DNA from: Chloroflexota bacterium
GTDB lineage: Bacteria; Chloroflexota; Anaerolineae; J102
Direction: 5' to 3'
Assembly (NCBI GenBank): GCA_013151415.1
Contig: JAADII010000007.1
Location: 1-36,231 of the forward strand
Length of the DNA stretch: 36,231 nucleotides
Shown here: positions 2,674 through 21,492 of the stretch, piece after piece
Numbering within the stretch: position 1 is the first letter of the stretch
How the letters are laid out: each line of letters starts with the position of its first letter
Notes under the pieces: model-generated
Databases searched by the model: none
What the model was told of the DNA's origin: nothing
What the model saw: the letters and a program-made list of their open reading frames with translations, nothing else
Position numbers and translations under genes: made by a program

Positions 2674-4193
2674 GACGCCCCCTCCGCAACGGCGTTATTT
2701 TGTCCCATGGCCGCGGTCATGATCACCTCTTGGGTGGCCTCATCGCGCGAGAAAACGCCCATTTGCCGCCCTTCGCGCATCACAAGAATGCGATCGCACA
2801 TAGAAAGCACCTCCGGTAAATCAGAGGAGATGACAATAATGGCCAGCCCTTGCTCCGCCAGCTCATCCACCAACTGGTGAACTTCGGCCTTCGCACCCAC
2901 ATCGATGCCTCTTGTGGGTTCGTCGAGAATAAGCACTTTGGGGCCGGCGTTGAGCCATTTAGCCAGCATAACCTTTTGTTGGTTGCCGCCCGAAAGCTGA
3001 GCCACAGGCGCTTCAACGGAAGGCGCGCGGATGCTCAAACGCTCTTTGAACTTCTCGGCCACGCTTTTCTCCTTTTGGCGCTGCACCAAACCCAAGCCGT
3101 TGAGATAGCTTCTTAGCGTGGGCAAGGTGATATTTGCCGTAATGGACATGGGCAACACCAGGCCGAGCTGCCGCCGATCTTCGCTCATGTAAGCCACGCC
3201 ATGTTCGAGAGCCTGTCGCGAGGAGCGTATCTCAACCTCTTGCCCATCGAGAATGATGCGCCCCTCATCGGCCGGCTCAATGCCAAACAACGCCAAACCC
3301 ACGTCGGTGCGTCGCGAACCCACCAGGCCGGCGAAACCCAACACCTCGCCTCGCCGAACTTGAAAATGAATGCCCGAAAAAACCCCCCGCTTGCCCAAAT
3401 TTTCCACCGTGAGCGCGATGTCGCCTCGTTCGGCCGTCGTCTTGGCGAAAAATTCCTCCACCTCGCGCCCCACCATTTCTCGAATCACTTGCTCGGCGCT
3501 GACCCCTTCAGACGCGAGATGGCTGGCGATCAATTTGCCGTCTCGCAGAATGGTGATGCGGTCCGCGATCTCGAACACCTCCTCCAGGCGGTGTCCGATG
3601 AAGAGAACCGCCACCCCCTTCTTTCGCAGCCGCTCCACCAGTAGAAAGAGTTGGCGCACTTCGTGAGCCGAAAGCGAGGCCGTAGGTTCGTCCATAATCA
3701 GCACGCGCGCATCCAAAGAAATCGCCTTGGCGATTTCCACAACTTGCTGAGCCGCCAGAGTCAGGCCGCGAGCAGGTTGGCGCACATCCAGCCGAACGTC
3801 GAGCTGAGCCAATATCGCTTCGGCCCGGCGGTGCATTTCCTTCCACCGCACCAGAGGCCCAAAATCTCGATGGCTGATAAAAATATTTTCCGCCACGTTC
3901 AAATCGGGAAACACCATAGGCTCCTGATAGATGGCGGCAATGCCATACACTTGCGCTTCCTGCGAATTTCTCACCTTGATGGGCCGCCCCTCCAGTCGCA
4001 TCTCTCCCTGATCCGGCTGATAGATGCCCGTCATAATCTTGATCAGCGTGGATTTCCCGGCGCCATTCTCCCCGATCAGCGCTTGCACCTCCCCGGGATA
4101 GATGTCCAGCGACACATCATCCAACGCTTGCGTGGCGCCAAAGCGTTTTGAGATGCGTCGCAATTGCATGATGGGTTGTGAGGCAGGATTCAT
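2670..4193 (-). CDS. CUT2 ABC importer, double ATP-binding subunit (RhaT/LsrA-like)
   Basis: 507-residue tandem ATPase of the RbsA/XylG/LsrA group. Domain 1 (residues ~1-250) has Walker [10 protein letters not shown], a degenerate signature [14 protein letters not shown], Walker [12 protein letters not shown] and H-loop FIGHRLEEV. Domain 2 (~255-500) has an atypical Walker A position ([11 protein letters not shown], no GKS/T), signature [14 protein letters not shown], Walker [13 protein letters not shown] and the SSDLPEV end typical of this family. The LTLAAQQ signature and the [19 protein letters not shown] stretch resemble rhamnose-system ATPases as I know them. It starts at ATG 4193 preceded by AAAGGATG. 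First gene of the leftward operon; it energises sugar import. The missing P-loop lysine in the second site is common among CUT2 ATPases with one working site, so it need not mean inactivity. Confidence 0.93.
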
Positions 4194-4329
4194 AGCCGTT
4201 CATCCTTTGGTAACGCAGGGCGAATGGCTCCTCTGTTTTCCGTAAATCGGTGACCGTTGCCCACGAGCGGAATCCTGATGAGGGTGCAAAAAGGGGGTGA
4301 ATATCGTGCTTGCGAGGCGTTCGTAAGGC

Positions 4330-4376
4330 ATTCTACTATAACTTTCTTTTGATGTCAAGCACTTCCGAAAGAAAGT
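4330..4376 (-). promoter_or_regulatory. Promoter and inverted-repeat operator of the CUT2 sugar importer operon
   Basis: Read on the minus strand: -35 TTGACA (4353-4358), a 17-base spacer, then -10 TAGAAT (4330-4335), an almost ideal sigma-70 promoter. A perfect 9-bp inverted repeat, ACTTTCTTT (4341-4349) and AAAGAAAGT (4368-4376), separated by 18 bases, brackets the -35 box. Its half-sites are two helical turns plus a few bases apart, as expected for a dimeric repressor or a DeoR/GntR-type regulator (inference; no regulator gene is adjacent). The predicted leader before ATG 4193 is about 130 bases. The 320-base interval 4194-4513 otherwise holds only this promoter and a divergent one for the next gene; no credible gene was seen in it. 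Confidence 0.6.
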
Positions 4377-4426
4377 AAAAACATTATATCGGATTTTCTG
4401 AACCAAACCCTGCCGCGACGCGGACT

Positions 4427-4456
4427 TTGGGTGCGCGCGAGGATTTATGCTAAACT
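4427..4456 (+). promoter_or_regulatory. Probable promoter of the secreted Thr-Pro-rich protein gene
   Basis: Extended -10 element TGC-TAAACT (TG at 4448-4449, hexamer 4451-4456) with a weak -35 TTGGGT (4427-4432), spacer 18. It points rightward, about 58 bases ahead of ATG 4514, and is divergent from the sugar importer promoter. Only the extended -10 is convincing. Confidence 0.35.
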
Positions 4457-4513
4457 AATTGCTTGCGCCCGCATCATGCGCGCGCATCACCCCCTTCATC
4501 GCGAAAAAACATC

Positions 4514-5224
4514 ATGCCCCAATGGCTCCTTCGGCTTGCGCCGCTCCCACTAATCGCTTTGTTCATTTTCTTCGCCCCGCGTCTTTTGCACGCGCAGGGC
4601 GGGTCTGGCATCAGTTATCCGCCCGAAACCGAAGTTTTGCGCGGGGTTGTGGTTATTCGCGGCACGGCTGTGCATCCGGATTTCTGGAAATATGAACTTG
4701 CGGCCGCGCCTTTCGGCACCGAAAACTGGTTCAATATCGGCGTATTTGAAACGCCCGTTCAAAGCGGAGAGCTGGGCCGGTGGGATACGCGCACCGCGCC
4801 CGACGGCACCTACACGCTGCGTCTACGCGTGGTGCGTCGCGACGGCAATTTCGATGAATATTTCGTCCGTCGCGTGCTCGTGGGCAACGCGCTTCCCACC
4901 GAGACGCCCACGCCCGAACAAACGCCCACTCCCACCGTCACCCCCACGCCCGAACCCCCCACGCCCACGCCTGTCGTAGTCACGCCCGAAATCCCCACGC
5001 CCACGCCAGCGCCCAGCCCGACCCCCACCCTGGCCATCGGAGCCGGCCCCGAAGAGCATGACGACAATCAGGAATTGGCGATAGCTCATTTGTTCGAGCG
5101 CTCGACGCAGGCGTTCTTCACAGGCGCGAAAGTCGTTTTATTCACCTTTCTTTTCATCGGCGTCTTCTTCGCCATCAAAAACATCCTCACCTGGCTCTAC
5201 TATCGATTGATCATGCGGTATTGA
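4514..5224 (+). CDS. Secreted, C-terminally anchored Thr/Pro-rich protein
   Basis: About 236 residues from ATG 4514; the open frame extends upstream to a TTG at 4463, but ATG 4514 places a clean signal peptide (basic MPQWLLR, hydrophobic core, cleavage near LLHAQG) at the N-terminus. Residues ~25-120 form a beta-rich domain (YPPETEVLRGVVVIRGTA ... FWKYELAAAP ... WDTRTAPDGTYTLRLRVVR) like the Ig-like domains common in Chloroflexota surface proteins. A linker of repeated TPTP/PEPTP units follows (~125-180), then one membrane helix near the C-terminus (KVVLFTFLFIGVFFAIK) and a short basic tail. The likely topology is an extracellular domain on a mucin-like stalk held by the C-terminal helix. Function unknown. 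pth follows after 93 bases. Confidence 0.75.
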   Translation: MPQWLLRLAPLPLIALFIFFAPRLLHAQGGSGISYPPETEVLRGVVVIRGTAVHPDFWKYELAAAPFGTENWFNIGVFETPVQSGELGRWDTRTAPDGTYTLRLRVVRRDGNFDEYFVRRVLVGNALPTETPTPEQTPTPTVTPTPEPPTPTPVVVTPEIPTPTPAPSPTPTLAIGAGPEEHDDNQELAIAHLFERSTQAFFTGAKVVLFTFLFIGVFFAIKNILTWLYYRLIMRY

Positions 5225-9610: not shown

Positions 9611-11245
9611 TCATCCACTCACTTTGGGATGGGGTATTTCCACTTCGATGATGAGCCCGCCATCAATTTGATTGCGCAAATTCAGCTTTCCTCCCATCAA
9701 GGTCACGCGTTCACTTATGCCGAGCAGGCCATAGTGGCCCGAACGACTCACCTCGACCAAGTCAAATTCATCGGGAATGCCGATGCCATTGTCGGCGATG
9801 GTCATCAATAGTTTCCGGGGCGAGGGATGACACAGGGTGATGCGCACGCAATCAGCGCTGGAGTGCTTCCATACGTTGCTCAGGCTTTCTTGAACAATGC
9901 GAAAAATGGATAATTCGATCGACTCTGGCAATCGCCCAACCTGCGCTTCGAGCACCAACTCGACGCGTATGCCGGTGCGCGCGGACCATTCTTGCGTATA
10001 CGATTGCAAAGCCGCGCCCAGCCCAAGGCTGTCGATGGTGGGCGGTCGCAGGTCTCGGCACACCCGACGCAATGAGTCCACCAATTCTCGAATGCCTTCG
10101 CGCACGTCATTCAGGTCATCGCCGATGGGTTGCTTTTTCACGGCCTTATCTCGAATGCCCTCCAATTGATAACTCAGACCCAACAACGCCTGAATCATCT
10201 CATCGTGCAATTCGCGGGCCAAGCGCTTGCGCTCGAGCTCTCGTTCGGTCAGCAATCGGCGCTGGGCGTTTTGCAAGGCCAGGTTGGCCGCGTCCAAGGC
10301 TTTGACCTGTTCGGCCAGTTGGTCGACCAGGCGACGATTGAGCACATCTTGCGCGGCCAGATTCTGCTCTAGCAGCATCTGATTGTGCCGAAGGATTTCG
10401 GCCTGTTTTCGGGCTTGGAAATAACTATCCAGCGCCCATATTGTGGGCGTGCGTTGTTTGCGATCGGCCGCGTCTATCATGGCGCCAACAATATTTTCGC
10501 GCGAGGTTTGATCGGTGGGCGTGTCGGCCACGAGTCGGCCCTGCTGCAAAACAATGATTCGATCCGCCACCGCAAATAAATGATCGAGATTGTCACTGGC
10601 GAATATGACGCTTGCGCCGGCATTTTGCCAGGAGCGGATAAGGGCCAACAGCTTTTGTTGATAAGGGTAATTCAAAAAAATGCTGGGATCATCCACGAGC
10701 ACCAGCTCCAAAGGCCGAATCATCGTCTTGGCGATGGCGATAAGATGGCGCTGCTCATTGGATAGATAGCCCACAGGCATGCGCAAATTGTCAAGATATA
10801 GGTCGAGTTCGTTTAAGATGCGTCGCGTTTCGACCTCCATCCGACCCCGATTTGGGACCTCCAAGAACGGAATGGGCCAACACAATTCGTGCCCCAAAAA
10901 GACATTGCTTGTAATATCGAGAGAATCCACCAACTCGGGTTGGTGATGAATCGCGCCTATGGGGAAATTATGGGCAGGAAATGGCCACTTCTGCGCCACT
11001 CCCTGGTAATATATTTTCCCGGTCTCCGGCGTGATCTGGCCGGTGAATATGCGCAAGAGCGTGGTTTTTCCCGCGCCGCTGCTTCCGGCCAAACCAACCA
11101 CCTCCCCGCGGTTCAAACAAAAGCTCACATCGCGTAATATCTCGAGCGCACCAACTCGATAGGATACGCCTGACACCTCCAACAACGCCCCAGTCTGCTT
11201 TTCAGTAGGCGATATCCGCAAGGATTTGGCGAATGGTAATGGCAT
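9611..11245 (-). CDS. ABC-ATPase/histidine kinase fusion (HisKA_3 type)
   Basis: 544 residues from ATG 11245 (upstream GTG 11293 and ATG 11281 would enlarge the overlap with the regulator gene). Residues ~20-260 are a sugar-importer-type ABC ATPase: Walker A GSSGAGKTT (~54), Q-loop HHQPELVDSLDI, signature LSNEQRHLIAIAK (~161), Walker B LVLVDD (~181). The catalytic Glu after Walker B is Asp (VDDPS), the H-loop His is replaced (FASDNLDHL), and the D-loop is lost, so ATP may bind without fast hydrolysis. A coiled coil (~280-344) leads to a NarL-type phospho-acceptor box ERKRLARELHDE (His ~347) and an HATPase domain (N-box VQESLSNVWKH, G1 DNGIGIP, G2 GHYGLLGI). No membrane helix. Co-translated with the response regulator. 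The ABC part probably senses or docks to a transporter (inference). Confidence 0.9.
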   Translation of the reverse strand: MPLPFAKSLRISPTEKQTGALLEVSGVSYRVGALEILRDVSFCLNRGEVVGLAGSSGAGKTTLLRIFTGQITPETGKIYYQGVAQKWPFPAHNFPIGAIHHQPELVDSLDITSNVFLGHELCWPIPFLEVPNRGRMEVETRRILNELDLYLDNLRMPVGYLSNEQRHLIAIAKTMIRPLELVLVDDPSIFLNYPYQQKLLALIRSWQNAGASVIFASDNLDHLFAVADRIIVLQQGRLVADTPTDQTSRENIVGAMIDAADRKQRTPTIWALDSYFQARKQAEILRHNQMLLEQNLAAQDVLNRRLVDQLAEQVKALDAANLALQNAQRRLLTERELERKRLARELHDEMIQALLGLSYQLEGIRDKAVKKQPIGDDLNDVREGIRELVDSLRRVCRDLRPPTIDSLGLGAALQSYTQEWSARTGIRVELVLEAQVGRLPESIELSIFRIVQESLSNVWKHSSADCVRITLCHPSPRKLLMTIADNGIGIPDEFDLVEVSRSGHYGLLGISERVTLMGGKLNLRNQIDGGLIIEVEIPHPKVSG

Positions 11246-12251
11246 CGAGATCTCGTTTATCGATAAAGGCGGACGCCCCATGCTCCAGTCCACTGCGATG
11301 GAATTCGCGATCGGGATACGCGCTAATAAGAATAATGCGCGTCTGGGGCGAACGTTTTTTCAACAAGGATGTGCATTGAATGCCATTCTCATTACCGAGC
11401 AGGACATCGATGAAGGCCAGTTTTGGTTGCACTTGTTCGGAGATGGTCAATGCCTGGCGGACATTTTGCGCTTCGTAAACCACCACGATGGGGGAGATGT
11501 TGGCGATCATCTGAGACAATTGCTGCCGATATCGCCCGTTGTCATCCACAATCAAGACCGCGATCTGCGATTTGACGGGCATCTCGATGGTGTATTCTTG
11601 CAATTTTGCCTGAGAAACAGGGGCTGTTTCCAAGATGAGGGGGTTATCGTGGACATAACGAACCGCCTCCAAACGACTAAGCACGCCCAGCCGACGATAA
11701 AGTCGCGTAAGATGATTTTCCACCGTCTTGACGCTGATGCCCATCTGGTTGGCAATGTTTTGATTATCGTAGCCCAAATACAAGAGCTTCAGTATCTGAC
11801 GCTGCCGTTCGGTGAGCATGGGGACGCTTGGCTGCTGGTTCGATTTGGAAAGCAACCTATCCAATAAGGGTGGAGAAAGCCAGCGCTCTCCGGCCATGAC
11901 GCGCTGCACGGCCAGTCGCAGATCGCTCAACGGTTGGTCTTTCAAATGATATCCATCCACACCCACACTGAGCAAGCCCTGAACATAAACATCATCGTCA
12001 TACGCGCTCACAACCAATATGCGCATATCAGGATATTGGGCGCGTATTTCACGAATGGCCGCAATCGGTTCGAAATCGGGCATGGTGACATCGACCAAAA
12101 GGCAATCGGGCCTATATTTGGCCAGCGCCCGAAAAAGCTCCGCTCCGCTGCCCACCTCGGCAACCACCTCTGTCTCCTCAAGTTCGCTGAGCGCGGTGCG
12201 CAAACCGTATCGGACCACACTGTGATCATCGGCAAGTAAAATACGATTCAT
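11202..12251 (-). CDS. Response regulator, REC-LuxR HTH-REC
   Basis: 349 residues from ATG 12251 (MNRILLADDH, the normal receiver N-terminus; an upstream extension to 12290 is unlikely). Receiver 1 (1-120): acidic pocket Asp8/Asp9, phospho-acceptor Asp54 in VDVTMPD, Ser82, Lys104. A LuxR/NarL DNA-binding domain follows (~145-205: LTERQRQILKLL, helix-turn-helix IANQMGISVKTVENHL). Receiver 2 (~228-349): Asp236/237 in IVDDN, acceptor Asp282 in FIDVLLG, Ser in ISAYPD, Lys in FIDKRD. Both receivers keep every residue needed for phosphorylation. NarL-type regulators usually end after the HTH, so the second receiver is an addition. It overlaps the kinase gene by 44 bases, so the two form a pair that likely controls the transport/carboxylase genes upstream. 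Confidence 0.93.
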   Translation of the reverse strand: MNRILLADDHSVVRYGLRTALSELEETEVVAEVGSGAELFRALAKYRPDCLLVDVTMPDFEPIAAIREIRAQYPDMRILVVSAYDDDVYVQGLLSVGVDGYHLKDQPLSDLRLAVQRVMAGERWLSPPLLDRLLSKSNQQPSVPMLTERQRQILKLLYLGYDNQNIANQMGISVKTVENHLTRLYRRLGVLSRLEAVRYVHDNPLILETAPVSQAKLQEYTIEMPVKSQIAVLIVDDNGRYRQQLSQMIANISPIVVVYEAQNVRQALTISEQVQPKLAFIDVLLGNENGIQCTSLLKKRSPQTRIILISAYPDREFHRSGLEHGASAFIDKRDLDAITIRQILADIAY

Positions 12252-12330
12252 GACTGACGGCTCAATGGGAAGAGGAGTGGGCGGACGCAATCCTTTTCAT
12301 TGGCGCGCGCGATGGCGTCGATGAGCCTCA

Positions 12331-12451: not shown

Positions 12452-13039
12452 TTATGGCTCCATCTTATGAGTGGCTCCGATGAGCCTCCAGCCCAAGGGA
12501 AGCGCGAGAGCGGCCGCCACCATCTTTAGGGCGTCTCCCAGCAGGAAGGGCAGCACGCCCGCCACGATGGCTTGTTCAAGCCCGATCAAAAGGCCAAGCC
12601 AAAGCGCGCCAAAGCCATAGATCGCGACATTGCCCATGAACATGGCCGCGATCGTGCTTGAAAAACCGCGATCCCAACCGCGCTCGGCCAACCATCCAAC
12701 CAGGAAAGCCGCAACAACAAAGCCAAACAGGTAGCCCGCGGTGGGACCGAGCAAAACATAAAAACCGCCCGCGCCGCCGGCGAACACGGGAAAGCCCAAA
12801 GCGCCTTCCGCGAGGTAGGTCAACACGGCGGCCGCGCCGCGCACTCGGCCCAAGAGCGCCGCCAATAGAAGAACAGCAAACGTTTGACCGGTGATAGGCA
12901 CTGGGTTAAAAGGCAAACGAATGGCCACTTGGGCCGAAAGCGCGATCAATATAGAGCCAAACAAAATGAGACTCATGTCGTAAAGAAGCGCATCTCGACG
13001 TTTGGCGGGACGAAAAACATCCATATACGTGGGGTGCAT
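12452..13039 (-). CDS. bioY: Biotin transporter substrate-binding subunit BioY
   Basis: 195 residues, starting at ATG 13039 behind CAGGAG. Six hydrophobic segments and the BioY core LPFNPVPITGQTFAVLLLAALLG, followed by GFPVFAGGAGGFYVLLGPTAGYL, match the ECF-transporter S component for biotin. No EcfA/EcfT (BioM/BioN) partners are next to it; BioY can work with a shared energising module encoded elsewhere or, in some species, alone (family knowledge). It lies directly downstream (47 bases) of the pxpC-like gene and in the same run as accB and accC, which fits a job of feeding biotin to that carboxylase. Confidence 0.95.
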   Translation of the reverse strand: MHPTYMDVFRPAKRRDALLYDMSLILFGSILIALSAQVAIRLPFNPVPITGQTFAVLLLAALLGRVRGAAAVLTYLAEGALGFPVFAGGAGGFYVLLGPTAGYLFGFVVAAFLVGWLAERGWDRGFSSTIAAMFMGNVAIYGFGALWLGLLIGLEQAIVAGVLPFLLGDALKMVAAALALPLGWRLIGATHKMEP

Positions 13040-13086
13040 CTTTTTTTGCTCCTGAGTGGTGTGAGGTGATGAACCAATCGGCGGGT

Positions 13087-14058
13087 TCAGGCTGCGAGGG
13101 CTTCTCGTAATCTGGCAATACGCTGGTTGCGCTCTTGCCGAGCCGCCAAAGCCTGATCGAGATCAACGGCGATGAAACGGGTTTTGCTGTTGGGCTGGGT
13201 CTGAGCGACCGCGTCCATATCCGCGCTAATGACGGTGCCGATCATGGCGTATCCGCCGCCCGAGACTGCGTCGCGATGCAAGATGATCGGCTCCAGCCCG
13301 CCGGGCACTTGAATCGAGCCAATGGGATAGGCCGCGTCGACGATGTTGGAAGGATCGCTTCCGGCTCCGAAGGGTTGTTTTCTTTTGATGAAACGCAACT
13401 CCGAGCCTTTGTACCGAAATCCAATGCGATCGGCCACCGGCGTTAGCGTCCACGTGGTCTCGAAAAAGTTCTTCAACCCTTCTTCGGTGAGCAAATAATC
13501 GTAAAGCCCCATCATCACCCGAATTTCGATGAGCTCGGGAAAGGCGATGCGCAGGTCCTGGGGGACCGAGCGCTCCACAAAGGCGGAGCCATTCGCGCCT
13601 ATGGGCAACAAATCGCCCTCCTGAAGGTTCCGGCCTTCGAATCCGCCAAACGCGCCCAACCCGTAAAGCGAGCGACTACCCAGGATGATGGGCACATCGA
13701 TGCCGCCAGACACGGCCACATAAGTGCGCGCGCCGCGTTTGAGAAAGTCAAAAGAGAGTCGATCTCCCGCTCTCACTTCAAACGATGTCCATAGCGGCAT
13801 CTCTTGACCATTCAAACGCGGGCTCATCTCAGCGCCCGTCACCGCGACGACGGCGTTCTGTTGGAATTCAAGCTCGGGGCCCAGGTAGGTGCATTCGAGG
13901 ACCGCGGCGTTTTCGTCGTTGCCCACCAACAAATTGGCGGCCAGGAAGGAATATTGGTCCATCGCGCCCGAAGGGGGAATGCCCACATGATAGTAGCCCC
14001 ATCGTCCTCTGTCTTGAATCGAGGTTGCCAGACCGGGTTTGATTACTTTAATTGCCAT
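13087..14058 (-). CDS. pxpC: Biotin-dependent carboxyltransferase subunit, PxpC/KipA (AHS2) family
   Basis: 323 residues. The family start MAIKVIKPGLATSIQDRGR and GYYHVGIPPSGAMDQYS are textbook for the KipA/AHS2 domain shared by 5-oxoprolinase subunit C and urea carboxylase; further conserved blocks are NAAVLECTYLGPELEF, YVAVSGGIDVP and LGSRSLYGLGAFGG, and near the C-terminus GGYAMIGTVISADMD. With PxpB it forms the heteromeric carboxyltransferase/ATP-dependent ring-opening part of the complex. Its start overlaps the end of pxpB by 11 bases, so the two subunits are made in a coupled way. In Bacillus the homologue KipA also takes part in kinase KinA regulation, a role not implied here. Confidence 0.93.
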   Translation of the reverse strand: MAIKVIKPGLATSIQDRGRWGYYHVGIPPSGAMDQYSFLAANLLVGNDENAAVLECTYLGPELEFQQNAVVAVTGAEMSPRLNGQEMPLWTSFEVRAGDRLSFDFLKRGARTYVAVSGGIDVPIILGSRSLYGLGAFGGFEGRNLQEGDLLPIGANGSAFVERSVPQDLRIAFPELIEIRVMMGLYDYLLTEEGLKNFFETTWTLTPVADRIGFRYKGSELRFIKRKQPFGAGSDPSNIVDAAYPIGSIQVPGGLEPIILHRDAVSGGGYAMIGTVISADMDAVAQTQPNSKTRFIAVDLDQALAARQERNQRIARLREALAA

Positions 14059-14944
14059 TGAGCGCCTCCATTAAACCACGATTGTAGCCGTCGGGATCGG
14101 AGAGAAACTCGCTCAATTTGAAATGCACTTCCCTCTTGTGAAAACGGAAAGCGCCATCTTCAACTTGAGCGCGATATTCATCATACTCTTCACGATCGAT
14201 GGGCCGGAACTTTACAATATCGCCAGGATTGAAAAAAATCATAAAATCTGCAAAGTCGGGCAGCCGTTGCTCCGGATCGAAAATCGGGGCCGGCGTGATG
14301 CCAAACATTTGATACCCGCCCGCGCCGCGCACAGAATAAATGCACGAAAAGCAACCGCCATGGCCAATGGTCAGCGCGGGCGTGTCTGTTCGCGGTCGCA
14401 AGTATTTTGGCACCTCCAACTGACGTTCGCGAGGCGTCATCTGAAAGAGAAACGGCAACCCGGCCACAAAGCCAACCATGGATGTAAACCAGGGCGAACC
14501 GGAGTGCGCCTCAATGAACGCCTCGACCGAATCGAGCCCATTGATGCGCGCCGCGTATTCCAGGTCGGTCGTTTCGGGCGATTGGTGCCGATCTCGAAAC
14601 CGCATCAGCGTTTCATAGGTCCAGGGATCGTTATAATAGACCGGAACCTCGATAATGCGAGTGGTTAAATCAAAATCCATGGCGTCTCCCACTTCGTTGT
14701 CGATAGCCTGCAGCTCTTGCATAAGATCCTGTGGATGGATGACATCGGGATCAAAAAGCACTTGATAAGATGCATTGGCCGGACAGACATCGACGATCCC
14801 CGGAATGGCGCGCTGGCGTATGAGTTCAGCAATGGCCATGGCCCGAAAATTGGCTTGTAAGCTCATCTCTTCATCCAATTGAACGAAGATCTGCTCGTCG
14901 CCGCCATAACTGTACCGCGCAGTTGAACGAGCGTTTTCTGACAT
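14048..14944 (-). CDS. pxpB: Carboxyltransferase subunit, PxpB/KipI (AHS1) family, long form
   Basis: 298 residues from ATG 14944, set by a strong AAGGAGG site; an open frame continues upstream to 15106 without conserved sequence. The core follows AHS1/KipI: YSYGGDEQIFVQLDEEMS (N-terminal), GIVDVCPANASYQVLFDP, WFTSMVGFVAGLPFLFQM, and GGYQMFGITPAPIFDPE. It is longer than a typical PxpB (about 220-240 residues): an inserted segment after residue ~110 (VYYNDPWTYETLMRFRDRHQ) and an extended C-terminus are visible. The usual Gly-Gly-x-Gln-x-Gly-Ile-Tyr stretch reads HGGCFSCIY here. It partners PxpC. The differences suggest a subfamily with its own substrate (inference). The gene sits 79 bases after accC. 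Confidence 0.88.
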   Translation of the reverse strand: MSENARSTARYSYGGDEQIFVQLDEEMSLQANFRAMAIAELIRQRAIPGIVDVCPANASYQVLFDPDVIHPQDLMQELQAIDNEVGDAMDFDLTTRIIEVPVYYNDPWTYETLMRFRDRHQSPETTDLEYAARINGLDSVEAFIEAHSGSPWFTSMVGFVAGLPFLFQMTPRERQLEVPKYLRPRTDTPALTIGHGGCFSCIYSVRGAGGYQMFGITPAPIFDPEQRLPDFADFMIFFNPGDIVKFRPIDREEYDEYRAQVEDGAFRFHKREVHFKLSEFLSDPDGYNRGLMEALNGN

Positions 14945-15023
14945 GGCAGCCTCCTTGAAAAATATGGTTTGAAATAGGAATGGTGATGTATGAGATAGAG
15001 AGCGCCCGGCGTGATGAGGGCGG

Positions 15024-16394
15024 CTATGCTTGGCGATATTCGGCGTCGAGCCAACGCTCGAGAAAGTTTGTGTGATATTGACCGCTGGCAAAGCAGGGAT
15101 TGACAAACAACTGTTCGAGCATGGATTTGGTGGTGCTCACGCCTTCGATGTGCAGTTCATAAAGCGCGCGCCGCATTCGCCGAATGGCTTCTTCTCGCGT
15201 CTCACCCCAAACAATGACTTTGGCGATGAGCGAATCGTAAAAGGGTGGAATGGTGTAACCTTCGTACAACGCGGTGTCCACTCGCACCCACGGGCCGCCA
15301 GGGAGCCGCAGACGTTGGACCTGGCCCGGATGAGGCATGAAGTTTTGGGAAGGGTTCTCAGCATTGATTCGACATTCGATGGCCCATCCCTGAGGCCGGA
15401 CATCCTCTTGCCGAAGACGAAGCGACGCGCCGGCCGCGACCCGAATTTGTTCTTGCACCAGGTCCACCCCACAAACCAGTTCCGTGACAGGATGCTCAAC
15501 CTGAATGCGGGTGTTCATTTCGATGAAGTAAAACGCCTTCGTTTCGGGATCAACCAAAAATTCGAGGGTCCCCGCGCCGCGATATGCCACGGCATTGGCC
15601 AGACGCACGGCGGCAAGGGTGATTTGCGACCGTTGTTCGTCGTCGATGCAGGGGGAGAGCGCCTCCTCCACGACCTTTTGTCGCTTACGCTGGATTGAGC
15701 ACTCCCGTTCAAAAAGGTGAATGCACTGGCGGCCATCTCCGAGAATTTGCACTTCGACATGACGCGCATGAGGAATGAATTTTTCCAAATAGACGGCTTT
15801 GTTTCCAAAGGCCGCCTGGGCCTCGTATTGGGCGATGGGCAACGCCTGCTCCAGCTCGTCGCGGTTTTGCGCCACTCGAATGCCGCGGCCGCCGCCCCCG
15901 CCAGCGGCCTTTATCATCACCGGATACCCGATCTCATCGGCCCAAGCCCTGGCGTCTTCGACATCGCGAATCGGTTGTGGTGTGCCGGGAACCGTGGACA
16001 CGCCCGCCAATTCGGCCGTTCGCCGCGCCAATGCTTTATCGCCCATGGAGGCGATGGACTCAGCCAAAGGACCCACAAAGATCAAGCCGGCCTCCGCGCA
16101 CTTTTTCGCAAATTCGGCGCTCTCCGCCAAAAAACCATAGCCCGGATGAATCGCCTGCGCGCCTGACTGTTTGGCTGCGGCAATGATGGCGTCTGGATTC
16201 AAGTAGCTCTTCCCGGCCGGAGGCGGGCCAATGCAAAGGGCTTCATCCGCAAGCCAGGTGTGGAGGGCGTCGCGATCGGCTTCACTATAGATCGCGACTG
16301 TGCGGATTCCTAAATCGCGCGCCGCGCGAATGATGCGAACGGCGATCTCGCCACGATTGGCAATAAGGAGTTTGTCAAACGCGTTGCTGTGCAT
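15024..16394 (-). CDS. accC: Biotin carboxylase
   Basis: 456 residues from ATG 16394, preceded by GAGGTGG; the frame is open to 16412 but that start has no ribosome site. The enzyme uses ATP and bicarbonate to carboxylate the biotin on AccB. All hallmarks are present: N-terminal FDKLLIANRGEIAVRI, HPGYGFLAES, the ATP-grasp glycine loop IKAAGGGGGRGIR, KFIPHARHVEVQILGD, ERECSIQRKRQKV, the catalytic EMNTRIQVEHPVTE, and the C-terminal domain up to LERWLDAEYRQA. Length is standard. It lies between a minimal accB and pxpB rather than next to accA/accD, so it probably serves the Pxp-type carboxyltransferase. It may still be shared with other biotin enzymes. Confidence 0.96.
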   Translation of the reverse strand: MHSNAFDKLLIANRGEIAVRIIRAARDLGIRTVAIYSEADRDALHTWLADEALCIGPPPAGKSYLNPDAIIAAAKQSGAQAIHPGYGFLAESAEFAKKCAEAGLIFVGPLAESIASMGDKALARRTAELAGVSTVPGTPQPIRDVEDARAWADEIGYPVMIKAAGGGGGRGIRVAQNRDELEQALPIAQYEAQAAFGNKAVYLEKFIPHARHVEVQILGDGRQCIHLFERECSIQRKRQKVVEEALSPCIDDEQRSQITLAAVRLANAVAYRGAGTLEFLVDPETKAFYFIEMNTRIQVEHPVTELVCGVDLVQEQIRVAAGASLRLRQEDVRPQGWAIECRINAENPSQNFMPHPGQVQRLRLPGGPWVRVDTALYEGYTIPPFYDSLIAKVIVWGETREEAIRRMRRALYELHIEGVSTTKSMLEQLFVNPCFASGQYHTNFLERWLDAEYRQA

Positions 16395-16429
16395 GGGTCG
16401 CGGCCACCTCATTGGCTTGAAACGCGTTG

Positions 16430-16675
16430 TTATTCTATCTCGACGATGGCAATGGGTTGGCCGGCCATGACGGCGTCTTCGTTGGCCACCAGGAATTCCA
16501 CTAATTTGCCATTCACCCCGGCCTTGACCTCATTGAACTGTTTCATAATCTCTATCAGACAAATGGTTTGGTCCGCGGTGACTGGATCGCCTTCGGTCAC
16601 ATAAGGCTCCGACGTTGGATTGGGACGACGATAGAATGTGCCTGGTAAGGGAGACAAAATTTGCTGACGCGACAT
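16430..16675 (-). CDS. accB: Minimal biotin carboxyl carrier protein
   Basis: 81 residues, the biotinyl domain alone. The biotin-accepting lysine is Lys45 in IEIMKQFNEV, the equivalent of the AMKM/EAMK motif; flanking PLPGTFYRRP and the C-terminal GQPIAIVEIE complete the lipoyl-type fold. It lacks the ~70-residue N-terminal part and Pro/Ala linker found in most acetyl-CoA carboxylase BCCPs (about 150 residues). It starts at ATG 16675 behind GGAG. It shuttles the carboxyl group from AccC to the PxpB/PxpC pair. Tight spacing to pxpA (38 bases) and accC (35 bases) supports one complex. Confidence 0.93.
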   Translation of the reverse strand: MSRQQILSPLPGTFYRRPNPTSEPYVTEGDPVTADQTICLIEIMKQFNEVKAGVNGKLVEFLVANEDAVMAGQPIAIVEIE

Positions 16676-16713
16676 GATGGCGCTCCTGGATTAGGTGGAA
16701 AAATGAGGATGGA

Positions 16714-17448
16714 TCAATGGTCTTGATTGAAGGCTGTCACAACCTCCTTGACAGCGCGAGCGATGGCTACGGCATTGGGCGTGTCTGAATGCACGCAAAT
16801 GCTTTCGGCTCTGATGGAAATGTCCACGCCTTCGGCCGAACGAACCTTGCCTTCGGTCAACATGCGATGCACGCGCCTGGCGGCCTCGGCTGGCTCCACC
16901 GCATGATGTTCACGCGTGATGATCAACCCGCCATTTTCATTGTATTCGAGATCTGAATAGAACTCGGCCACCAGGGGAACCCCCACCATTTCAGCCATTT
17001 GCTGATGAAGCGTGTTCGCCATGCCAAAAATAGGCACGCCAAACAATGCCGCCACTTCACACACCACCCGGGCGACCGATTCATCGCGCGCGGCCATGCC
17101 ATATAGGGCCCCGTGCGGCTTGATATGATTCAGCTCCATGCCCTCGATATCGAGAAAGGCTTTGAGCGCGCCCACCTGATAAATAAGGAAATCGGTCAGC
17201 TCCTCCGCTTCCAAATGCATCACGCGCCGACCAAACCCTTGCCTGTCTGGCAGAGAAGGATGCGCGCCCACTTTCACCCCATGTTTCTTGGCCAGCCTGA
17301 CCGTTTTGTGCATGATGATCGGATCTGAAGCGTGAAACCCGCAAGCCACGTTGGCCACATCAATATAGGGCATGATGCCGGCGTCATCGCCGATCTTATA
17401 AAGTCCGTACCCTTCACCCATATCACTGTTTACGGTGATTGTGGTCAT
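16714..17448 (-). CDS. pxpA: 5-oxoprolinase subunit A-like protein (LamB/YcsF family)
   Basis: 244 residues with the full LamB/YcsF pattern: TVNSDMGEGYG, DVANVACGFHASDP, VKVGAHPSLPDRQGFGRR, NHIKPHGALYGMA and SICVHSDTPNA. In PxpABC the A subunit works with B and C to open 5-oxoproline to glutamate using ATP; the fungal lamB relatives act in lactam use. One block differs: where the Escherichia coli protein has FADRGYQADGSL, this one has FYSDLEYNENGGL, losing the Arg of the ADR motif. Starts at ATG 17448 after GAGGAGC; 33 bases behind the permease gene. It links the importer genes to the carboxylase genes. Substrate: 5-oxoproline or a related amide/lactam (inference). Confidence 0.94.
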   Translation of the reverse strand: MTTITVNSDMGEGYGLYKIGDDAGIMPYIDVANVACGFHASDPIIMHKTVRLAKKHGVKVGAHPSLPDRQGFGRRVMHLEAEELTDFLIYQVGALKAFLDIEGMELNHIKPHGALYGMAARDESVARVVCEVAALFGVPIFGMANTLHQQMAEMVGVPLVAEFYSDLEYNENGGLIITREHHAVEPAEAARRVHRMLTEGKVRSAEGVDISIRAESICVHSDTPNAVAIARAVKEVVTAFNQDH

Positions 17449-17481: not shown

Positions 17482-18507
17482 TCAATCATGCAAAACCGCG
17501 ACATATCGCTGGCGCAGCTGATCGGCGATAACAGCTACAATCAGCAATATGCCCAACACAACAATTTGCAAATAGGATTCGATTCTGGCGAGGTTCATGC
17601 CATTCTGAACCAGACCAATGAATATGGCGCCCAGGACAACATTTTCGATGCGTCCCACGCCGCCGCGCAGCGACACGCCGCCTATAACGCATGCCGCGAT
17701 GGATTCAAGAGGAAATGAGGCCCCGATATTTGCTTCGCCCGTTTCCAGGCGCGCGGTGAGAAGCAAGCCGGCAATGGCGGCCAACGCCGCGCTTAGCACA
17801 TAAACATGAAATAAAATATATTTGGTGTTGATCCCGGATAACGCTGATGCCTTGATGTTGCCGCCAACCGCATAAAAATATCGGCCTGTTTTTGTCCAAT
17901 TCAGACGTAAATATGAGATAAGAATAATGCCTAACGTAACCCAAATGGGCGTGGGCACATTCAAGAGATCGCCGAAGCCAAAAATATCACTGTACTGAGG
18001 AGGCAACCCATACACCGGAACGCCCCCTGTCATGAACAGCGAGACCCCAAACGCCACCGACGACATGCCCAATGTCATCATGAAGGGCGAGACGTCAAAA
18101 AGCGCGACGCCCGCTCCATTGAGCACGCCCACAAACGAGCCAACCACCAGACCCGCCAACACGCCCAACACAATGGCCAGCGCAACCGCATCGTTGTTCG
18201 CCCCATACACGGCCGACATAACGGTTGCCGACACCACCGAGGTGAGCGCGATGATAGACCCCACAGAAAGATCGAACCCGCCGGTTAGCAACACAATCAT
18301 TTGCCCGATGGCGACAATGATGAGATAGGTGGACTGACGAGACACATTGAGCATGTTGCGCCAGGTCAAATAATTATCCGACAAAGTTGTAAAAATAATG
18401 ATGGCGATCACAAGCAAGAATGGCAATACGCCCACTTTGACAAAAATTCTCTGAACTGATGAAACCACTTTTCTCGGTATTGTCGAGCTAACGGCTTCTA
18501 CAGGCAT
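17482..18507 (-). CDS. CUT2-type ABC importer permease (TorT-like receptor system)
   Basis: 341-residue membrane protein of the RbsC/BPD_transp_2 family, starting at ATG 18507 behind AAAGGAG. Signatures: LTGGFDLSVGSIIALTSVVS (residues ~75-95), VSPFMMTLGMSSVAFGVSLF, the ATPase-docking loop VGGNIKASALSGINTKYI, and the C-terminal ENVVLGAIFIGLVQNGMNL. Around nine transmembrane segments. It is the only permease gene in this system, so it should act as a homodimer, as in ribose transporters. It lies between the ATPase gene (65 bases upstream) and pxpA (33 bases downstream), tying uptake to the carboxylase genes. Confidence 0.92.
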   Translation of the reverse strand: MPVEAVSSTIPRKVVSSVQRIFVKVGVLPFLLVIAIIIFTTLSDNYLTWRNMLNVSRQSTYLIIVAIGQMIVLLTGGFDLSVGSIIALTSVVSATVMSAVYGANNDAVALAIVLGVLAGLVVGSFVGVLNGAGVALFDVSPFMMTLGMSSVAFGVSLFMTGGVPVYGLPPQYSDIFGFGDLLNVPTPIWVTLGIILISYLRLNWTKTGRYFYAVGGNIKASALSGINTKYILFHVYVLSAALAAIAGLLLTARLETGEANIGASFPLESIAACVIGGVSLRGGVGRIENVVLGAIFIGLVQNGMNLARIESYLQIVVLGILLIVAVIADQLRQRYVAVLHD

Positions 18508-18572
18508 AGAAAAACACTCCTTTGCTTATGATGAAGAGGCAAGAAACCACTTATACTTATGATGCAGCTTTA

Positions 18573-20111
18573 TCACGTTGTCGGCCGCGCCGGAGCGCCT
18601 TGGGCGGTTGCATGGCCATCGTTGCCCCCAAAGAAATGACGCAACACATTTTCCTCTGTAATATCCGCGTCTTGAAGCTCGGCTTTGAGTCGGCCGCGAT
18701 GAAAAATGTAAACTCGATTCGCGAGGTGCAAAACCTCGGGCAAGTCTGACGAGATGAGCAGCACAGCGGCCCCCTGTTCACACAATTGGGCAATGAATTC
18801 ATAAATGGCCACGCGCGCGCCCATATCAACGCCAATGGTGGGCTCATCCAAAATAAATAGGTCGAAATCACGCGTGAGAGAACGCGCCAAAAGCACTTTT
18901 TGCTGATTTCCGCCGGAAAAGAACTCCACAGGGCGCTCCATATCCAGCGGCTGCAAACGAAGTTGTTTGGCCAACGCGCGCGTATGACGGCTTTCGGCGT
19001 GGCGTCGTAAGAAGCCAAAACGAGAAAACATGCTCAGATCCAGGGCTGGCAATGAGATGTTCTCGCGAGCGCCGCGCTGCATGAGCAAGCCTTCGGAGCG
19101 ACGGTCGGAAGGGAGGTAAAACGCACCCCGCGCCAACATCTCTTTCGGCGATGACCGGGTTACATCCTCCCCGCGGAAGCGAATCTCGCCCCAACGCGGA
19201 TGGACCGCGCCAAAGCAGGCGCGGGCCGCGCTCGACTTGCCCGAACCAACCAGGCCAGCAAAACCCACGATCTCCCCGCGTCGGACATAAAACGAAACAT
19301 GATCGACATCGCGCGTCGATAGATTGTTCACCTCGAGCACCACCTCTTGCGGCCGGTAGTTGATCTGAGGAAACACCTGCTCGATCACGCGGCCGGTCAT
19401 CAGGCGCAACAGTTCATTTTCATCCACAGCGTCGGCGTCAACGGTGGCGATCACCCGTCCATCGCGCAATACAGTGATTCTATCGGCAATTTGCTTGATC
19501 TCGGCCATGCGATGAGTCGTGTAAATAATTCCCACGCCCTCGGCCTTGACTTGTTTGATAAGAGCGAAAAGGCGCGCGGTTTCTTTTTCTGTCAACGATG
19601 CCGTAGGTTCATCGAGAATGAGAACAGAAAGCTCCGACCGAAAAGCCTTGGCTATTTCCACCATTTGTTGTTCGGCTCGGCTGAGATGCCCCACAACCTG
19701 ATTTGGATGCAACGGGAAGGCCAGTTTTTGAATAATGGCGCTGGCTTCATTTTGCATCGCCCGTTTATCCAAGAGCCATCGATTTTCGCGCTCCGCCCCC
19801 AAAGCAAGGTTTTCACCCACGGTGAGTTGCGGCACAAGGGAGAATTCTTGAAACACCGCACTGATGCCATGACTGCGCGCGTGATGCACAGATTGGTTTT
19901 TTATCTCCTGGCCGCGAAAGAGCATGCGGCCTGAAGTTGGTTGATACGCCCCCGTTATGACGCCGATAAGCGTTGATTTCCCCGCCCCATTTTCGCCAAA
20001 CAACACATGCACCTCACCGGCGCGCAGGTCAAAATCCACCTGGTCGAGCGCCAAGACGCCCGGGAAACGCTTCGAGATGCCTTGGCAATGCAAAATGATG
20101 TTCTCTTCCAT
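18573..20111 (-). CDS. CUT2-type ABC importer, double ATPase subunit (TorT-like receptor system)
   Basis: 512 residues from ATG 20111 (other in-frame starts are ATG 20138 and GTG 20207; the last lies inside a hairpin and none has a good ribosome site). Domain 1: Walker [11 protein letters not shown]-loop VFQEFSLVPQL, signature LSRAEQQMVEIAKA, Walker [13 protein letters not shown]-loop TTHRMAEI. Domain 2: Walker A GLVGSGKSS, signature [15 protein letters not shown], Walker B LFILDEPTIGVDM, and the family-typical SSDLPEV instead of a His. Unlike the ATPase at the left end of the window, both P-loops are intact. It drives uptake through the permease encoded next. A C-terminal tail (GHATAQGAPARPTT) is unique. 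Confidence 0.93.
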   Translation of the reverse strand: MEENIILHCQGISKRFPGVLALDQVDFDLRAGEVHVLFGENGAGKSTLIGVITGAYQPTSGRMLFRGQEIKNQSVHHARSHGISAVFQEFSLVPQLTVGENLALGAERENRWLLDKRAMQNEASAIIQKLAFPLHPNQVVGHLSRAEQQMVEIAKAFRSELSVLILDEPTASLTEKETARLFALIKQVKAEGVGIIYTTHRMAEIKQIADRITVLRDGRVIATVDADAVDENELLRLMTGRVIEQVFPQINYRPQEVVLEVNNLSTRDVDHVSFYVRRGEIVGFAGLVGSGKSSAARACFGAVHPRWGEIRFRGEDVTRSSPKEMLARGAFYLPSDRRSEGLLMQRGARENISLPALDLSMFSRFGFLRRHAESRHTRALAKQLRLQPLDMERPVEFFSGGNQQKVLLARSLTRDFDLFILDEPTIGVDMGARVAIYEFIAQLCEQGAAVLLISSDLPEVLHLANRVYIFHRGRLKAELQDADITEENVLRHFFGGNDGHATAQGAPARPTT

Positions 20112-20180
20112 AGCGGCTTGCGGTGGTCGCTGGCTCATCGAATGCGTGGCTCTGCACCTAAAATGCAAACAGGATGGATG

Positions 20181-20211
20181 ATGGGTGGCCGGCTTTGATC
20201 CGGCCACCCAT
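20181..20211 (-). promoter_or_regulatory. GC-rich stem-loop between binding-protein and ATPase genes
   Basis: Perfect 12-bp stem (20181-20192 with 20200-20211, ATGGGTGGCCGG and its complement) and a 7-base loop. It sits 18 bases after the stop of the binding-protein gene. On the transcribed (minus) strand no T-run follows directly (CATCCATCCTGTTTGC), so it is unlikely to be a strong terminator. It more likely protects the upstream mRNA or partially stops transcription, giving more receptor than ATPase. Confidence 0.65.
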
Positions 20212-20228
20212 GCAAAGACGGCAAAGAC

Positions 20229-21413
20229 TTACTCGGCGGTGACCCGGAACACAGGGCTAAATCCATCGGGCGCCAAGGAGGAATCTCGATCAAAGGTGTT
20301 GATGTTGTTGGAGTCAACAACATACAGTTTTGGGCCAACATGCTTCAAGTAATCTTTGCCTTCAAGAATGCGCACAGCTTGATCGATGGCGATGCGTCCT
20401 TGAATGACGGCTGAATCGGTGGGAGCGGCCAACATGCGACCACTTTGAATGCCCTGGTAGACGCCGGGCGTGAAGTAATAGGAAATCACCTTAATCTTGT
20501 CATCAAGACCTCGGTCGCGCAGGATGCTCACAGCGGCTTCGGCCGTCACCGCGGTGCCAGCGATGTAATCAATATCGGGATTGGCCTCGAGTGCGTCTTC
20601 GATAAGCTGCGACTGAACTTCTTTGCCGGTGTCGCCATATTTCGTATCCACCACCTCGATAGCTCCTTGAGCCACGGCCTCGAGGAAACCGGCGTTCCCC
20701 GCTTCCACCCATCCGGCGCCGGCCGGACCCGGGAACCAGGCCACCTTGACGGAATCCCCTCCCGCGGGGTGCAGCTTGGCCAGGTATTCACCGGCTTTAT
20801 AGCCCATCTCGCCAAAAGAAACCAGCGACTTGGCGGAAAGTTCGGGGGATGACATGCCATTGATGACATCGATGACCGGAATATTTTGAGAACGAAGTTC
20901 TGAAACAAGATTGTTCAATCCATCATACGAAATGGCCCCAATGATCACCGCGTCGGCGCCGGCCGCGACGCAATCTTCAATTTGAGAGATTTGGGTATTG
21001 AGTTCGGTGTAGCCTCCCGCTTCGACCAACTGCATATTCACACCCAGTCGACGAGATTCATCCACTACACCGTAGTCAACTGCCAGCCAATAGGCGTCTT
21101 TCATATGGGGGAAAGAGACGCATAACTCCCAAGGCTTTTCCGCTTTTTCCAGAGGAACATAATCCACGGTTTTGCGCGGGCTATCCATGTTGAAAGGAGG
21201 ATCCCACACCTCCACCGGATAGGGATACCACTTATCCCCCTCTTCACCGGCGGTTGATTGCGGTGATTCCTCTTGAGCGGTTTCCCCGGCGCTTACGCTT
21301 TCTTGCTCTGACGCCGATGATTGGTCCTGAGCAGCATTGCAAGCGCTCACCGCCAAAGCCAAAGCGATGAGAGCCACCAGTAGGAATGTGAGGCGTTTGA
21401 TTTGGGAATCCAT
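20229..21413 (-). CDS. TorT-like periplasmic binding lipoprotein of an ABC importer
   Basis: 394 residues from ATG 21413, set by AAGGAGAG; a longer frame to 21473 has no signal. It has a lipoprotein signal (MDSQIKRLTFLLVAL ... LAVSAC) and a Ser/Glu/Gln-rich linker, then a type 1 binding fold. The mature part resembles E. coli TorT block by block: WELCVSFPHMKDAYWLAVDYG, EAGGYTELNTQISQIEDC, FGEMGYKAGEYLAKL, VAWFPGPAGAGWVEAGNAGF, IDYIAGTAVTAEAA, and LAPDGFSPVF near the end (recognised from memory of TorT, not a search). TorT binds TMAO for the kinase TorS; here the gene heads an ABC importer operon instead. It is the first gene of the run to 9611. Ligand unknown; the downstream genes suggest an amide or lactam (inference). 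Confidence 0.88.
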   Translation of the reverse strand: MDSQIKRLTFLLVALIALALAVSACNAAQDQSSASEQESVSAGETAQEESPQSTAGEEGDKWYPYPVEVWDPPFNMDSPRKTVDYVPLEKAEKPWELCVSFPHMKDAYWLAVDYGVVDESRRLGVNMQLVEAGGYTELNTQISQIEDCVAAGADAVIIGAISYDGLNNLVSELRSQNIPVIDVINGMSSPELSAKSLVSFGEMGYKAGEYLAKLHPAGGDSVKVAWFPGPAGAGWVEAGNAGFLEAVAQGAIEVVDTKYGDTGKEVQSQLIEDALEANPDIDYIAGTAVTAEAAVSILRDRGLDDKIKVISYYFTPGVYQGIQSGRMLAAPTDSAVIQGRIAIDQAVRILEGKDYLKHVGPKLYVVDSNNINTFDRDSSLAPDGFSPVFRVTAE

Positions 21414-21463
21414 TCTATCTCTCTCCTTGAGACAACAAACGTGGACGGGTGATAACGATTTCC

Positions 21464-21492
21464 AGAATAGCATACAGCACTTCGGTTGTACA
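21464..21492 (-). promoter_or_regulatory. Promoter of the TorT-like importer/carboxylase gene run
   Basis: Minus strand: -35 TGTACA (21487-21492), spacer exactly 17, -10 TATTCT (21464-21469) with an upstream TG giving an extended -10. Predicted start near 21457 and a ~44-base leader containing AAGGAGAG ahead of ATG 21413. The gap 21493-21677 upstream also has two perfect palindromes, GGGAATTCCC (21519-21528) and GCCTCGCGAGGC (21533-21544), which could be operator sites; their role is unknown. Confidence 0.55.

Follow-up and report, generated by a model that had tools for sequence, protein, structure and literature searches.

A Chloroflexota histidine kinase with a CUT2-type ABC domain as the candidate partner of importer permeases

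In the SLC5-STAC kinases CbrA and CrbS, the sensor is a fused module of transporter origin, and activation is reported to be independent of transport through the SLC5 domain (PMC5715377). In BceAB-BceS and PstSCAB-PhoU-PhoR, an ABC transporter informs a histidine kinase, the coupling relying either on a kinase in the membrane or on an adaptor, and the kinase carries no fused ABC domain (PMC6978683, PMC3023708). In XylFII-LytS, as far as it is outlined where cited in PMC10384115, an importer-type sugar-binding protein feeds a two-component system by contacting the kinase's own extracellular domain, and neither a permease nor an ABC domain is described as involved. The locus analysed here lies in a contig of a Chloroflexota bacterium (JAADII010000007.1, positions 1 to 36,231; this whole stretch of 36,231 nucleotides is called the window) and encodes a kinase that shares features with each of these systems. 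Whereas CbrA and CrbS carry the membrane transporter itself, this kinase carries a soluble domain of the ATPase type, and the membrane component is a distinct protein. Its ABC domain and the permeases and binding proteins encoded near it and its relatives are homologous to those of the CUT2 importers (RbsABC, XylFGH, AraFGH), from which 16 of the loci described below differ by a kinase-adjacent permease that has a changed coupling helix and no ATPase gene of its own.

The kinase gene occupies positions 9611-11245 of the minus strand, with an ATG at 11245 giving 544 residues or, possibly, a GTG at 11293 giving 560. Searches against Pfam placed ABC_tran at residues 37-187 (2.6e-21), HisKA_3 at 338-402 (1.1e-14; 10040-10234, minus strand) and HATPase_c at 444-540 (3.9e-11; 9626-9916, minus strand) in this one frame, in agreement with the initial annotation, which had joined a CUT2-like ABC domain, a coiled coil, a His box and an HATPase from the letters only. 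The nearest NCBIfam models were the CUT2 ATPases AraG, YtfR and XylG for the ABC half (1e-30 to 1e-34) and NarX/UhpB/LiaS-type kinases for the other half; a fold search against the PDB matched a large number of ABC ATPases without singling any out. The ABC domain spans residues 20-256 (10478-11188, minus strand) and is followed by a long conserved linker helix with a TP-x-IWAL-x-x-Y motif (residues 262-345; 10211-10462, minus strand), which runs on into the kinase. In a structure model the ABC domain (pLDDT of about 95) was followed by a single helix of 108 residues, 262-369, passing through the phosphoacceptor His347. As proposed before, no membrane span was detected by a hydropathy scan.

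Relatives were gathered from Chloroflexota genomes, and the counts and alignments given here rest on the resulting 80 kinase copies, including some that we take to belong to Chloroflexus aurantiacus and Herpetosiphon aurantiacus. Of the 396 genomes of the class that were searched, 61 yielded matches below 1e-60; of 400 searched across the phylum, 27 yielded matches below 1e-50, and 19 of these lie outside the class. A second copy, 44% identical, is present in the window's own genome beside a CUT2 importer (at C66). No match was found in the plasmid records searched, and a scan of contigs with peptides from poorly conserved stretches gave no fusion, a result that says nothing about other phyla. 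The literature searches, which reached few subscription papers, likewise returned no described ABC-kinase fusion, just as the initial annotation had known of no characterised example. Nearly all relatives are single frames, closed chromosomes included, which rules out an assembly join or a frameshift at the junction, the two artefacts by which the fusion might have been explained away. In a tree of ABC domains, those of the fusions grouped together in a single clade (SH-aLRT 100), close to CUT2 ATPases of the half-size and first-half kinds, as would be expected if the fusion had arisen once.

This kinship to CUT2 ATPases is not accompanied by the full hydrolysis machinery. The P-loop is intact in the window kinase, as had been noted (Walker A GSSGAGKTT, residues 54-62; 11060-11086, minus strand), and across the family 72 of 77 copies retain the Walker A Lys and 78 of 80 the Walker B Asp. 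At the H-loop position the window kinase has Asp218 (10592-10594, minus strand) in place of His, which is missing from all 80 relatives, and the D-loop is lost in the family; both losses had been recognised earlier. The reported replacement of the catalytic Glu by Asp needs rewording for the family as a whole, in which the position is not conserved and Glu is not uniformly lost (35 of 80 copies have E and 33 have D). Similarly, the signature motif read as LSNEQ is present, its family form being LSxEQ, with the Glu in 79 of 80 copies. The Q-loop position, which had escaped mention, is His in the window kinase and Gln in 68 of 78 relatives. In a small clade (L075, L076 and L085), all but the P-loop has been kept. 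From this pattern of residues we infer that the ABC domain of the family probably binds nucleotide and hydrolyses it poorly or not at all. The features of a NarL-type kinase are all present: His347, the N box and the G boxes are each kept in 79 or 80 of 80 copies, and the cognate regulator, found in the window and near the kinase in many relatives, has a LuxR/GerE output. The linker that follows the ABC domain hardly varies over much of its length in the 80 copies, and several ABC columns, including L161, E164 and E120, are likewise nearly invariant.

The same linker motif was found in a second architecture of about 850 residues, encoded after an ATPase-permease pair, in which it is placed between an ABC domain and GAF, HisKA and HATPase domains (L182:3120-5681, L183:2930-5491 and L184:3184-5778). 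Searching 392 genomes of the class with a profile of the linker yielded about 67 strong matches (at least 88 bits), and the next ones (41 bits or less) covered mainly the ABC end; no linker joined to a non-kinase output was recognised in the 392 and 345 genomes searched, the 297-residue frame of G354 being left out. One look-alike of the linker, WAWSGYAEARRHLETLRDRQLELKQAL, located after a membrane part in L201 (G241:C191:39000-46942), was assigned to an ordinary membrane histidine kinase.

In the window, the partner regulator gene (11202-12290, minus strand; an ATG at about 12251 is likely the real start) lies upstream of the kinase gene and overlaps it. The regulator consists of two receivers flanking a DNA-binding domain (REC-GerE-REC), and the phosphoacceptor Asp of both receivers is kept in 51 of 51 relatives. 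These two genes end a same-strand run that starts with a CUT2 importer comprising a TorT-like binding protein (20229-21473), a full-length CUT2 ATPase (18573-20207) and an RbsC-like permease (17482-18507), all on the minus strand; between importer and regulator are six genes (12452-17448) for LamB_YcsF, biotinyl carrier, biotin carboxylase, CT_C_D, CT_A_B and BioY proteins. Gaps in the run are short, the largest, of about 160 bases, being situated before the regulator. The binding protein passed the curated cut-off of one TorT model with 423 bits (cut-off 200) and narrowly missed that of another with 296 bits (cut-off 310). The kinase's ligand may be linked to the LamB_YcsF/biotin carboxylase pathway and be of the 5-oxoproline type. 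The permease is the best local candidate for a membrane partner and has a canonical GGN coupling helix, GGNIKAS, with Lys where most others have Glu. Judged from gene order, the co-directional importer (17482-21473) is probably, though less certainly than the docking itself, the partner of the window kinase. This assignment is the weakest point of the docking reading, because no dedicated permease was found in the window's genome, six genes separate the importer from the regulator, and the importer permease carries the unusual Lys.

Gene neighbourhoods of relatives were determined by simple calling of open frames together with profile searches, and the counts are partial since contig ends cut many loci. 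Among 45 relatives with both flanks reaching 6 kb, a CUT2 permease gene was found within 8 kb of the kinase in 38; the proposed check of whether homologues always sit near CUT2 importers comes out positive for most copies and negative for six Herpetosiphon-type copies and L073, which have no permease nearby. A transporter gene beside those of kinase and regulator is the arrangement of transporter-coupled two-component systems. Many relatives, the window kinase and its paralogue at C66 among them, share an operon with a complete set of binding protein, ATPase and permease or are transcribed divergently from one, and the window kinase falls in a supported set of 17 on the kinase tree, many members of which face importers transcribed away from them. 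Half-size ATPases are encoded in about a dozen loci.

A different arrangement was found in 16 loci (L044, L051-L054, L060, L061, L066, L069, L070, L083 and L127-L131), five of them from Chloroflexota classes other than the window's, where the kinase gene is accompanied by a CUT2 permease of its own, often with a binding protein, and the locus holds no ATPase gene for that permease. Several have the gene order permease, binding protein, kinase, and a complete importer with its own ATPase adjoins the locus in L044, L054, L070 and L127-L131. A seventeenth permease of this type lies beside a regulator at a contig end (L158). L077 is a separate case, in which a binding protein, a permease with a canonical helix and the kinase form a set with no ATPase gene. 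In L069, a single frame (2748-4865) immediately ahead of the kinase encodes a fusion of permease and binding protein.

Permeases were sorted by gene context, the shorter of the two present being taken in L127-L131. In a tree of 93 permeases, built by a quick search with no bootstrap and with the coupling-helix columns included (about 29 of 439 kept), the 17 dedicated ones formed one group (SH-aLRT 97). None of these 17 has the GGN motif in the coupling helix, against 71 of the 76 others. When a profile of the dedicated permeases was run over 396 genomes of the class, the eleven best full hits and L158 all adjoined a kinase or regulator gene and lacked GGN, and the next group of hits had the canonical GGN helix where it could be read and lay mostly beside ATPase genes. 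The dedicated permease itself looks to be of single origin. Explaining the dedicated-permease arrangement on the kinase tree takes seven changes, of which four or more fall on well-supported branches; the arrangement was therefore gained or lost more than once. A search for matched changes between kinase and permease had only four independent pairs on supported branches to draw on. At kinase residue 65 (R65 in the window, about 11051-11053), 14 of 41 copies lacking a dedicated permease have Lys or Arg and none of the 16 that possess one do, a difference that comprises too few independent pairs for a test. The changed helix and the missing ATPase gene suggest that the dedicated permeases probably transport nothing.

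We consider it probable that the ABC domain occupies the ATPase site of a CUT2 permease and passes the permease's conformation to the kinase, the whole acting as an importer-derived receptor. That the domain takes the ATPase's place on a permease had been put forward in the initial annotation, and is supported by gene context (the 38 of 45 relatives and the 16 loci above), with the partner in the window itself being a guess from gene order. A nucleotide-binding domain of a CUT2 ATPase would have been joined once, in Chloroflexota, to a HisKA_3 kinase through the characteristic helical linker, and would dock on the cytoplasmic coupling helix of the permease. Such kinases act as dimers, which here would bring two ABC domains, and permease dimers have two ATPase sites, so that the numbers would match. 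The docked domain would bind ATP, hydrolysing it poorly or not at all; a loaded binding protein would engage the permease, whose conformation would move the ABC pair, and this movement would be conveyed by the long helix to switch autophosphorylation of His347, from which the signal would pass to the paired REC-GerE-REC regulator. The permease would be a separate, dedicated receptor copy in many relatives and, more likely, the importer's own permease in the window's clade. Somewhat less firmly, though still better than evenly, we favour the view that the dedicated loci form a Chloroflexota receptor class in which binding protein and permease were kept, the fusion came to stand for the ATPase, and the coupling helix changed to fit, giving a receptor and not a pump.

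The initial annotation had proposed that the kinase could report transport flux, which would place the ABC domain on a working importer, beside or instead of one ATPase half, as in BceAB-BceS and with no separate receptor state. The many relatives in operon with or divergent from a complete importer, among them both copies of the window's genome, accord with this, as do the half-size ATPases, which leave room for a mixed dimer; we nevertheless regard it as unlikely, since sensing of flux needs none of what the 16 loci hold, namely a dedicated permease with a changed helix and no ATPase gene, often beside a complete importer. For those loci flux reporting is unsupported, a permease of that kind probably not transporting, and they are better explained by a receptor whose occupancy or conformation is sensed.

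Sensing of ATP alone by the ABC domain is possible, and the mostly kept Walker A and Walker B, the lack of a membrane span and the Herpetosiphon-type copies apart from importers would suit a soluble sensor of cytoplasmic ATP/ADP that touches no permease, the neighbourhood then reflecting only the regulation of importers. This account is improbable in our estimation: one clade has dispensed with the P-loop alone, and a permease clade that co-occurs with the kinase and has its own type of coupling helix is left unexplained. We give even less credence to the idea that the dedicated permeases are ordinary importer parts served by an ATPase from elsewhere, with the kinase merely co-transcribed and its ABC domain a relic. 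ATPases are shared in other families of ABC importers, and the ATPase of the complete importer adjoining some loci could serve both permeases, but the coupling helix of the 17 permeases is unlike that of 71 of the 76 importer permeases, and the near invariance of the linker and of L161, E164 and E120 over 80 copies is unlike a relic.

The receptor reading, with docking of the kinase on an importer membrane protein that is in many species a reserved copy, suggests a route from uptake machine to nutrient receptor, and, if true, would provide a clear example of the conversion of an ABC importer into a signalling receptor. The arrangements coexist in living genomes: a kinase beside a complete importer, a kinase whose permease is dedicated to it, and another type of kinase built on the same ABC-linker unit. 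Communication between coupling helix and ATPase would become testable, because the listener here is a kinase with an easily read output.

Binding proteins encoded near the kinases are often tandem fusions of Peripla_BP_4 stretches, two in L085 (2079-4223) and three in L054 (12320-15265), and a binding-protein frame of 1452 residues lies near the kinase in L067.
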